Shown in pieces: positions 5,738 through 25,446 of a DNA stretch of 40,233 nucleotides. The position numbers and the translations under genes were made by a program. Source of the stretch: Nitrospirota bacterium. GTDB lineage: Bacteria > Nitrospirota > Nitrospiria > JACRHA01. The stretch is taken from the NCBI GenBank assembly GCA_016234185.1, contig JACRHA010000113.1, forward strand, positions 1 to 40,233, in the 5' to 3' direction. The stretch's first letter is position 1; the number at the start of each line of letters is the position of its first letter. The notes below the pieces were generated by a model. It was not told the origin of the DNA. It did no database searches and was given only the letters and a program-made list of their open reading frames with translations.

Positions 5738-7441
5738 ATCCAACTGAAGACCGATCCTGCAACAGGTTCCTCATTTCACGTCGTCTTAATAAAACCTTCA
5801 AAGTATGACGATGACGGCTATGTCATACGCTGGCTTAGATCGTCAGTGCCAAGCAACAGTCTGGCCTGTCTCTACACACTGACAGAAGACGTAGGATCCT
5901 CACACCTGATAGGAGAGGATTGCGAAATCTATATTGATGCCTACGACGAGTCCAACTCCCGGATCCCCGTGCGGAAGATCATACATATGATAAAAAAGGC
6001 CAACGGCAAAGGGGTTGTATGCCTTGTTGGGGTACAGACCAATCAATTTCCAAGGGCAATGGATTTAGCCAGGGTCTTCAGGAGAGAAGGGATCAGGACA
6101 TTAATAGGGGGATTCCATGTAAGCGGATGTGTATCCATGCTGCCTGATTTGCCTGCGGAACTTAAGGATGCCATATCAGAGGGGATTACCCTTGTCGCAG
6201 GAGAGATAGAGGGAAGGTGGGGTCGTATCCTGATGGATGCCTATTTGGGAAAACTTGCCCCTCTCTATAACCTGCTTGATGAAAAGCCACCTCTTAAAGG
6301 GTCTCCTCCGCCTATTATGCCAACGGAACTAATAAGGCGGTACGTAGGTAAGCTGACCACCATAGATGCCGGACGGGGCTGCCCATTTGAGTGCAGTTTC
6401 TGTACTGTAATCAATGTCCAGGGTAGAAAATCCAGGGGCCGCACAGCGGATGAGGTCGAGAGTGCAATAAGAGAGAATTTTAAACATGGGATAAAGCAAT
6501 ATTTTATCACTGACGATAATTTCTCAAGACATCGTGATTGGGAGGAGATCTTGGACAGGATTATCCTCCTCCGGGAGAAGGAAAGAATTGGGATAAGGTT
6601 TATTATCCAGGTTGATACAGCCTGCCACCGGATACCCCGTTTCATAGAAAAGGCGGCGAAGGCCGGCTGCAGTAAGGTATTCATCGGACTTGAGAATATA
6701 AATCCTGAGAGCCTTAAGGGAACAGGTAAAAAACAGAACAACATAGAACACTACAAAGAGATGCTGATGGCATGGAGGAGGGCCGGCGTTATCACCTGTG
6801 CTGGATATATCATCGGCTTCCCTGATGACACCTATGAGTCTTTTATGAAGGACCTCGAAGTAATCAAGCATGAACTTCCACTTGACCTCATGGAGTTCTT
6901 TATCCTTACGCCTCTGCCCGGATCTGAAGACCATAGGCGTCTTTATGTTGACAGGGTATGGATGGATCCTGATCTCAACAGATATGATACCGAACATGCC
7001 ATCGTCCGCCATAAGAAGATGTCCGAAGAGGAATGGCTAAGGGCCTATCACTCTGCCTGGGAATCCTTCTACAGCCCTGAACATATAGAGACTATCTTCA
7101 GGCGGGCAGGCGCCTCTCACCGGAGCCTGGGCAAACTGACAGGCCAGGTACTCTGGTTTTATGGAAGCGTCAAATATGAAGGAGTACATCCCCTTCAGGC
7201 CGGGATATTAAGGATGAAAGACAGAAGGTCCAGGCGGCCCGGCCTCCCCCTGGAAAATCCGCTCATCTTCTATCCAAGACAGCTTTGGGAGCTTATCAGG
7301 TGTGCTTATTCCATGGCCGGTCTCGCCTGGAGACTCCATAAGATAAGAAAGCGCGTCCAGGAGTCACCTGACTACCGCAGTTACACCGATGCCGCCATGG
7401 AACCAGCCTTATCCTCCAGGGAAGCAGAAGGCATGTCTTGA
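5738..7441 (+). CDS. B12-binding-domain radical SAM protein (track start 5846; conserved N-terminus extends upstream to about 5738 without ATG/GTG/TTG)
   Basis: Radical SAM motif GCPFECSFCTVINVQGRKSR; upstream in-frame FHVVLIKPSKYDDDGYVIRWLRSSVPSNSLACLYTL is a typical N-terminus for this family. Confidence 0.85.
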   Translation: MQLKTDPATGSSFHVVLIKPSKYDDDGYVIRWLRSSVPSNSLACLYTLTEDVGSSHLIGEDCEIYIDAYDESNSRIPVRKIIHMIKKANGKGVVCLVGVQTNQFPRAMDLARVFRREGIRTLIGGFHVSGCVSMLPDLPAELKDAISEGITLVAGEIEGRWGRILMDAYLGKLAPLYNLLDEKPPLKGSPPPIMPTELIRRYVGKLTTIDAGRGCPFECSFCTVINVQGRKSRGRTADEVESAIRENFKHGIKQYFITDDNFSRHRDWEEILDRIILLREKERIGIRFIIQVDTACHRIPRFIEKAAKAGCSKVFIGLENINPESLKGTGKKQNNIEHYKEMLMAWRRAGVITCAGYIIGFPDDTYESFMKDLEVIKHELPLDLMEFFILTPLPGSEDHRRLYVDRVWMDPDLNRYDTEHAIVRHKKMSEEEWLRAYHSAWESFYSPEHIETIFRRAGASHRSLGKLTGQVLWFYGSVKYEGVHPLQAGILRMKDRRSRRPGLPLENPLIFYPRQLWELIRCAYSMAGLAWRLHKIRKRVQESPDYRSYTDAAMEPALSSREAEGMS

Positions 7442-23530: not shown

Positions 23531-24462
23531 AGACCATCTCCTCCCCTCTTGTTCATTGATAGGACCTTCTTCCTATGAACCATCCCAAATATCTCTTTTA
23601 TTATCCTTAGCGCTGCAAAACTTGTGATATCGTTGACATCGAGCGGCGGTGAGACCTCAACGAGATCTGCGGCTACTATATTCAGCCTGTCAAGTCCCCT
23701 GATAAAGGTAACCAGATCTAAGGTTGAGATACCTCCTGCCTCCGGGATTCCTGTCCCCGGTGCATATGCCGGATCAAGGACATCTATATCAATTGAAAGA
23801 TAGATATTGTCGATCCCTTCAAACCTTCTTACAACCTCCCTTGCTACATCCTTCATCCCTCTCTCCATGATCATATCCGGCGTGTAGGTCTTTATACTAT
23901 GCTTTTCAATAAACCTCAAAGGCTCGATTTCAAAGGACCTTGTCCCAACGAGCAGGATATTCTCAGGCCTGATATTTTGATTATCAAGGGCCCTTCTCAG
24001 GGGACACGCATGGGAGAAGGGTGATCCATCAAATGTATCGCTAAGATCAGTATGGGCATCCAGATAAATTATTCCTATAGACCCTCTTGAAAGCTTAGAC
24101 AGGAGATTGAAAATGGGTATAGAGACGGAATGATCCCCCCCTATGGTAAGGAGGAAGGACTTTAATAGCTTATCTGACAAACATTCATCAATCCTCTGAA
24201 AGGTCGTGTTGAACAATGGATCAACCTGGATATCACCAAAGTCCTTTACAAGAAGCTCCAGTACTTCACCCGTATCAAGGACAGGAGGGACAAATCCCGA
24301 TATCTCACGAATCCTTTTTGGAGCAAGGGCCGCACCCCTCCTGCAGCATACAGAGTTATCATATGGGACCCCTACTATAGCAACATCATGCAGTCTCTCG
24401 TCCGTATTTGCCAAAGTCAAACCGGCCCAGATGCCTCTCCCCTCTTTATTATCAACCCCCAT
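23524..24462 (-). CDS. Agmatinase/arginase-family ureohydrolase
   Basis: GGDHSVSIPIF, LDAHTDLSDTFDGSPFSHACPLRRAL, LSIDIDVLDPAYAPGTGIPEAGG metal-binding motifs. Confidence 0.92.
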   Translation of the reverse strand: MGVDNKEGRGIWAGLTLANTDERLHDVAIVGVPYDNSVCCRRGAALAPKRIREISGFVPPVLDTGEVLELLVKDFGDIQVDPLFNTTFQRIDECLSDKLLKSFLLTIGGDHSVSIPIFNLLSKLSRGSIGIIYLDAHTDLSDTFDGSPFSHACPLRRALDNQNIRPENILLVGTRSFEIEPLRFIEKHSIKTYTPDMIMERGMKDVAREVVRRFEGIDNIYLSIDIDVLDPAYAPGTGIPEAGGISTLDLVTFIRGLDRLNIVAADLVEVSPPLDVNDITSFAALRIIKEIFGMVHRKKVLSMNKRGGDGLW

Positions 24463-24503
24463 GTCTATCTCTTTCTTATTCCTCTTCCTTATTCCAAGGT
24501 TCT

Positions 24504-24540
24504 AAAAAAATGGCCGGCATCGAATGACTCACGCCGGCCA
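24504..24540 (-). terminator. Intrinsic terminator upstream of the ureohydrolase gene
   Basis: Minus strand TGGCCGGC-GTGAGTCATTCGAT-GCCGGCCA-TTTTTTT; perfect 8-bp GC-rich stem. Confidence 0.9.
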
Positions 24541-24850
24541 ATGAGATCTCGATATTCTATCTCTTGCCTTCTTCTTCTCCTCACAAACAGAGTGAAAACC
24601 CTCTCCCCGATCCATATATCCTTTCAATAGAGATAGAACTTAATCCACAAAACTACCTTTACCTTAGCGTCATCTATGCTAATTACTCAAAGCCGCCTCA
24701 TAGACCAGGCGGTACCACTTATGATCTCCTTGGTCCAGGAAATTACTCTAAGGCGGCTTTACCCTTGGGCCTCTGGGCCTAAATACCCATACGAGTCAAA
24801 ATAAAATTTAGAGATTTGTACCTTCCCTGATATTGCTACTTACTTGATTT
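24504..24850 (-). ncRNA. Candidate structured leader RNA or ncRNA upstream of the ureohydrolase gene; class unknown
   Basis: About 340 nt without credible ORFs. Long stem AAAGCCGCCT (24751-24760 complement) with AGGCGGCTTT (24689-24698 complement), internal GACCaAGG/CCTGGTC pairing, GGCC-CAGA-GGCC hairpin, terminal intrinsic terminator, and a possible upstream promoter TTGCGT-N17-TAAAAT. Confidence 0.5.
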
Positions 24851-24941
24851 CATGTTAAATTTTAACACATTCCAACATCAAACGCAAGCAGACTTTGTAT
24901 AATTAAGACCACAAATAATAGACAAACAGGGTTAGGAAACC

Positions 24942-25211
24942 TTAAATCTGATTCATTTCTGAAACAACTACCACATCCTTCCGATCCTCCGCAAAGATCT
25001 TTAAGCCAAGTCTCTTCTTGATATCCCTGTACGTCTCTGTCAGCTTCCTCTCATGCTCGCACTCCTCAGCCAAGAGACGGTTAAACATCTCCTTTATTTC
25101 CGGATCACCGGCAAGGAGGGCGCCCCTTTTATACCTCTTCTGTGCCCTCCTTTCATCCTCAATAGCTACCCTCAAGATCTCGAGAAGCATTTTTTCTATC
25201 GGGTCAGACAT
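24942..25211 (-). CDS. Short two-helix ferritin-like protein
   Basis: MSDPIEKMLLEILRVAIEDERRAQKRYKRGALLAGDPEIKEMFNRLLAEECEHERKLTETYRDIKKRLGLK; ExxH motif. Confidence 0.7.
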   Translation of the reverse strand: MSDPIEKMLLEILRVAIEDERRAQKRYKRGALLAGDPEIKEMFNRLLAEECEHERKLTETYRDIKKRLGLKIFAEDRKDVVVVSEMNQI

Positions 25212-25224
25212 CTCGCACCTCTCC

Positions 25225-25446
25225 TTATGCCACTGATTTCCATTTGGACTCAAGGCTAAGTTCATCTTCTATCTCTACAATTGTAGGATAACTTGTCCCT
25301 GTTATTGCCGAGACCCTGAGAAGATCCCTGTTTAAAATCTTGCCATTCTTCTTATATATAGCCAGTAATTCGTCGCATATCTCCTTTTTCTCCGCTGGTG
25401 TCAATTCACTCTTTGTCCTCCTTTTTACTTCCACATTTGGCCTCAT
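25225..25446 (-). CDS. Small conserved-looking protein of unknown function
   Basis: MRPNVEVKRRTKSELTPAEKKEICDELLAIYKKNGKILNRDLLRVSAITGTSYPTIVEIEDELSLESKWKSVA; AGGAGG-type RBS upstream. Confidence 0.6.
   Translation of the reverse strand: MRPNVEVKRRTKSELTPAEKKEICDELLAIYKKNGKILNRDLLRVSAITGTSYPTIVEIEDELSLESKWKSVA

Follow-up and report, generated by a model that had tools for sequence, protein, structure and literature searches.

A terminator-bearing leader upstream of an agmatinase-family gene in an uncultured Nitrospiria bacterium is a candidate transcription attenuator

The long gap that precedes an agmatinase-family gene in an uncultured Nitrospiria bacterium (JACRHA01, assembly GCA_016234185.1, contig JACRHA010000113.1) holds a structured leader on the minus strand that is probably an orphan cis-acting transcription attenuator of that gene. 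Throughout, the window means the whole stretch of DNA that was analysed, 40,233 nucleotides (40 kb) in length. The support for this reading lies in a strong main hairpin and a strong terminator, the rarity of such terminators in the genome, a layout common to the cobU and pyrR leaders, the lack of a later promoter and an alternative helix; the length of the gap, the presence of speD and speE, and the precedent of spermidine riboswitches before speB also favour it. We file the leader as an unclassified leader attenuator and not as a riboswitch; it is one sequence without relatives. If the reading is correct, the leader would represent a form of RNA-based control over putrescine synthesis that is as yet unclassified, in an order of Nitrospiria about which little is known.

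The gap separates the stop codon of a rubrerythrin-like gene (24942) from the agmatinase start codon (24462) by 479 nt, contains no gene of its own, and ranks among the longest 3.3% of codirectional gaps in the genome (median 17). From 5' to 3' it presents a weak promoter, an A+T-rich stretch, a GGCC hairpin, the main hairpin (H2), two more hairpins, an intrinsic terminator and the ATG (Table 1). A sequence-only reading of the window had proposed a promoter followed by about 340 nt of non-coding sequence with a long stem, a nested helix, a direct repeat, the GGCC hairpin and the terminator. All of these were found on the minus strand at or near the places it had given, and the leader is non-coding; no minus-strand ORF exceeds 32 aa.

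Table 1. Positions of the leader elements and flanking genes in the window
Feature	Position	Strand	Evidence
Upstream codirectional gene, rubrerythrin/ferritin-like	24942-25265	-	PF02915, 30.5 bits; stop 401 nt before terminator
Candidate promoter: TTGCGT (24887-24882), 17-nt spacer, TAAAAT (24864-24859)	24859-24887	-	Sequence; 8/12 match
Putative leader transcript, ~350 nt	24503-24852	-	Ends inferred from promoter and terminator T-run
H1, small GGCC-CAGA-GGCC hairpin	24768-24779	-	Sequence and fold; weak by itself
H2, main hairpin; internal loop holds first GAGTAATT, GTGGTACCGC near tip	24688-24761	-	z -3.3
Direct repeat GAGTAATT, copy 1	24741-24748	-	Repeat p 0.034
Direct repeat GAGTAATT, copy 2	24681-24688	-	Repeat p 0.034
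Candidate antiterminator 5' strand (CUGGACCAAGGAGAUC), shared with upper part of H2	24723-24738	-	Folding
H3, small hairpin UUAGC/GCUAA	24664-24682	-	p 0.14, not significant
H4, perfect TTCTATCTCT/AGAGATAGAA base	24554-24639	-	24550-24645: z -2.2, p 0.038
28-codon open frame MDRGEGFHSVCEEKKKARDRISRSHWPA, possible leader peptide	24529-24615	-	Ends within terminator 5' half
Candidate antiterminator 3' strand (GAUCUCAUUGGCCGG), overlaps terminator 5' arm	24534-24548	-	Folding
Intrinsic terminator: 8-bp G+C stem (24540-24511), T7 (24510-24504)	24504-24540	-	z -4.7, p 0.002
Agmatinase-family ureohydrolase, 312 aa	23524-24462	-	TIGR01230, 179.9 bits (cut-off 174.3); PF00491, 250.9 bits

The long stem with a nested helix that had been noticed by eye corresponds to H2, whose lower stem of 13 bp (24761-24749 with 24700-24688) encloses a GGACCA/UGGUC helix. 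The 80-nt region around it (24684-24763) folds at -31.3 kcal/mol, clearly better than shuffled sequence (p 0.006). The direct repeat is equally real, and its two GAGTAATT copies sit inside a longer 18-nt repeat with 15 of 18 positions matching; with p values on shuffles of 0.034 for the direct and 0.017 for the inverted repeat, the repeats of the leader are modestly unusual. The GGCC-CAGA-GGCC hairpin is present too, and is weak alone. The fold of the leader as a whole is barely more stable than shuffled sequence (z -1.5 to -1.7), which we count against the attenuator reading.

The classical terminator expected just before the gene (TGGCCGGC...GCCGGCCA-T7) is strong, and its last T lies 41 nt from the ATG, where 42 nt had been counted originally. 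The window holds two strong terminators, of which this is one, and it stands where an attenuator needs it, on the coding strand after the candidate promoter and ahead of the gene. A survey that covered 1.38 Mb, or about 70% of the assembly (141 stretches with 1348 ORFs, each 80 aa or longer), returned 30 intergenic terminator-like sites. Intrinsic terminators are scarce in this sample, and most transcripts may therefore be ended in some other way.

Four of the survey sites have a leader-type placement, in that a start on the same strand follows within 50 nt and the listed gene before them ends at least 200 nt away: those before cobU, pyrR, prfA and the agmatinase gene. We took the names cobU, pyrR and prfA from the start of each protein; for cobU and pyrR the name is consistent with the Rfam family of the leader. 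At prfA the terminator lies 11 nt upstream of the gene, in a 335-nt gap that presumably contains rpmE, a gene below the 80-aa limit, given the rho-rpmE-prfA gene order; we therefore left prfA out, since its terminator probably follows this small unlisted gene. Two of the three remaining sites are Rfam-confirmed attenuators. The cobU leader (RF00174, L252 8672-8867) extends over ~250 nt up to an intrinsic terminator placed 26 nt upstream of its gene, and the pyrR attenuator (RF00515, L161 4458-4568, contig C29) likewise has its terminator 26 nt before the gene, so the layout of the agmatinase leader is common to two recognised attenuators of the same genome. The leaders differ in their recognised motifs: the cobU leader carries an unmistakable aptamer (103.7 bits) and the pyrR leader a PyrR-binding motif (59.5 bits), whereas the agmatinase leader shows neither an aptamer nor a known protein-binding motif. 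The Cobalamin riboswitch and terminator before cobU together span L252 8613-8867 on the minus strand of contig C121. Because the leader-type set has few members and its definition came after the window had been seen, we regard the shared layout as support and not as proof. Where intrinsic terminators are rare, those just before genes appear enriched for attenuators, since two of the three here are recognised ones, and this may offer a route for orphan-switch searches.

An attenuator also calls for an alternative to the terminator, and one can be drawn. The helix formed by 24738-24723 with 24548-24534 is mutually exclusive with both H2 and the terminator. In stepwise folding of the growing transcript, H2 is nearly fully formed until the terminator 5' arm emerges, after which the alternative-helix state is predicted to reach up to 56% of the ensemble; before the terminator 3' arm is made, the two states lie within 1.4 kcal/mol of each other (-85.2 against -86.6), and completion of that arm tips the balance to the terminator state at -99.2 kcal/mol. 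The duplex strength of the alternative helix against shuffles gives p values from 0.013 to 0.15 according to which arm is taken, and the same test applied to the cobU and pyrR leaders does not single out these true attenuators. The antiterminator is therefore a candidate only, moderately unusual, and this is counted against the attenuator reading.

From these sequence elements we infer transcription, switching and a trigger, as follows. RNA polymerase would start near 24852 and make a leader of ~350 nt. While H2 (24761-24688) holds, the terminator (24540-24504) would be free to form and transcription would stop 41 nt before the agmatinase gene; were H2 opened, 24738-24723 could pair with 24548-24534, take up the terminator 5' arm and allow read-through. 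The trigger may be a polyamine or agmatine acting as ligand, a protein, or the translation of a small peptide. The ligand we would consider first is a reaction product, for instance spermidine or putrescine, which might stabilise H2 and so bring about termination, by analogy with the spermidine riboswitches found before speB (PMC10853860).

That the leader belongs to a new, lineage-restricted riboswitch class, which would sense a polyamine, agmatine or arginine and shut off the agmatinase by termination, is possible though not probable. The sequence-only reading had seen the layout of an attenuating riboswitch, or of a separate small RNA, here; the layout stands, being that of the cobU and pyrR attenuators, and a candidate antiterminator can be drawn, but ligand binding finds no support. 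Spermidine riboswitches, a variant of SAM-I, precede speB, speE, speD and ldcC in other bacteria, and in them terminator and antiterminator are mutually exclusive and the ligand-bound form stops transcription (PMC10853860). Both they and our leader stand before agmatinase genes, but the antiterminator of our leader is a candidate only, and their SAM-I aptamer with its four-way junction contrasts with one long hairpin in which no aptamer was recognised by Rfam at E<=10. A precedent from the same bacterial class is the Guanidine-I riboswitch that controls a permease-guanidinase operon in comammox Nitrospira (PMC11410670), whose guanidinase belongs to the same superfamily as agmatinase. The target there is a guanidinase, whereas the protein downstream of our leader passes the agmatinase cut-off of TIGR01230, and guanidine riboswitches were found neither in the window nor beside the examined agmatinase-type genes of the class.

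The failure to match known motifs by eye was confirmed by the Rfam search. No family reached its gathering score anywhere in the window, and the permissive search (E<=10) of 24200-25100 gave nothing relevant, including SAM-I/spermidine and guanidine-I to III, and so no significant match to a known class. 6S RNA was rejected, as RF00013 is found on another contig of the genome (105.5 bits). The 10-base T-box core, GTGGTACCGC, occurs four times in the sampled 1.38 Mb, one of them near the tip of H2 (24718-24709, minus strand). A T-box adjoins its terminator, whereas this identical stretch lies ~170 nt from the terminator and is without a stem I; there is no RF00230 match at the leader, the model gives nothing credible in the genome as a whole (the best, 11.7 bits, lies elsewhere), and a T-box was accordingly rejected. 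ANTAR-target RNAs consist of two neighbouring stem-loops with AnnGnn hexaloops (PMC8164766), and were rejected for want of a closely spaced hexaloop pair near the terminator.

The main weakness of the attenuator case is that the leader is without relatives from which covariation could be read. BLAST found no second copy in its own genome and chance matches only among 59 relatives, phages and plasmids; the matches of three relatives, on inspection, were without the rest of the element and resembled coding DNA. Covariance models built from this one sequence, R1 for the 5' part and R2 for the 3' part, matched only the window itself among 273 Nitrospiria genomes, as did R1 among 396 genomes of the phylum; such models are insensitive, so that close relatives are excluded and distant ones are not. 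With no homologue in these class and phylum sets there is no covariation and no sign of selection, and this speaks against an attenuator. The source assembly is the sole genome of its order among those searched, and its relatives are all of the same class. Agmatinases of that class (48-57% identity) are for the most part preceded by short gaps (about 60-240 nt), with different neighbours and no terminator, which also counts against the attenuator reading. Upstream of the agmatinases examined in Nitrospiria and in other phyla, no riboswitch lies near the gene. Of 80 named loci a single one, the agmatinase of an Anaerolineales genome (L064), is preceded by a terminator, at 68-44 nt from the start of the match, with no Rfam match near it.

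How the agmatinase gene is itself transcribed bears on two further explanations. The proposed promoter TTGCGT-N17-TAAAAT is present as first described but weak: its -35 element has three of six consensus matches, and a stricter scan does not list it (24887-24859). Shuffles yield 3.3 sites of 8/12 quality per 479 nt by chance and 0.24 with a TGn extension, so the candidate is better than chance only through its extended -10, a TG one base 5' of the -10 element. We count this weakness, too, against the attenuator reading. The sigma-70-like sites of the gap (at least 8/12) all lie upstream of the terminator, with none between it and the agmatinase start, so that expression of the gene probably requires read-through past the terminator; the scan covers sigma-70-like sites, and promoters of other sigma factors would be missed. 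This blind spot leaves room for the view that the terminator ends the rubrerythrin-like transcript, the ~400 nt being a 3' UTR or decayed DNA, and that the agmatinase gene has an unrecognised promoter. The rubrerythrin-like gene is indeed codirectional, and the genome contains some long gaps without a known function. In the survey, however, terminators that plainly belong to the end of a gene lie mostly within about 130 nt of the stop, as against 401 nt here; the stretch contains a strong hairpin, and just 41 nt would remain for an agmatinase promoter. We consider this explanation unlikely.

A promoter-like site, a structured body and a strong terminator would also suit a separate small RNA of ~350 nt that acts elsewhere and stands before the agmatinase gene incidentally, and other agmatinases of the class lack this leader. 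Such an RNA would leave the agmatinase gene without a promoter, as no sigma-70-like site follows the terminator; the distance of the terminator from the gene, tens of nucleotides, is similar to that at cobU and pyrR; and the leader lacks the homologues that a housekeeping RNA would be expected to have. A separate small RNA is likewise unlikely. Peptide-controlled attenuation by the 28-codon frame (24615-24529), in which a ribosome at the stop codon (TGG CCG GCG TGA) would block the terminator because that stop lies inside its 5' half, is very improbable: GAAAGGA just before the ATG could serve it, but this ribosome site is only 3 nt from the ATG, codon usage (3.2 bits) is below the 5th percentile of real-gene segments (3.9), there is no homologue, and frames of such length are common by chance.

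The protein that the attenuator would control has intact metal-binding motifs (GGDHS, DAHTD, SIDID). Its nearest solved structures by sequence are guanidinopropionase and guanidinobutyrase, so that its assignment to agmatine is provisional. Adjacent speD and speE genes (L273) occur elsewhere in the genome. A search of the genome, which is 85% complete, gave neither a pyruvoyl (PF01862) nor a PLP-type (PF02784) arginine decarboxylase; this makes the role of the enzyme less certain and counts against the attenuator reading, although the step could be performed by the SpeD homologue itself or be encoded on a missing contig.

Other sites in the same genome deserve mention. Terminator-like sites lie 162 nt before a glutamine synthetase-like gene (L227 10673, minus strand) and 517 nt before a rho-like gene (L178 3201, minus strand), both with no Rfam match, and they may be further leaders. 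On contig C105, a cspA thermoregulator match of 86.2 bits (L236 7198-7537, minus strand) is accompanied by a strong terminator-like hairpin at 7231.
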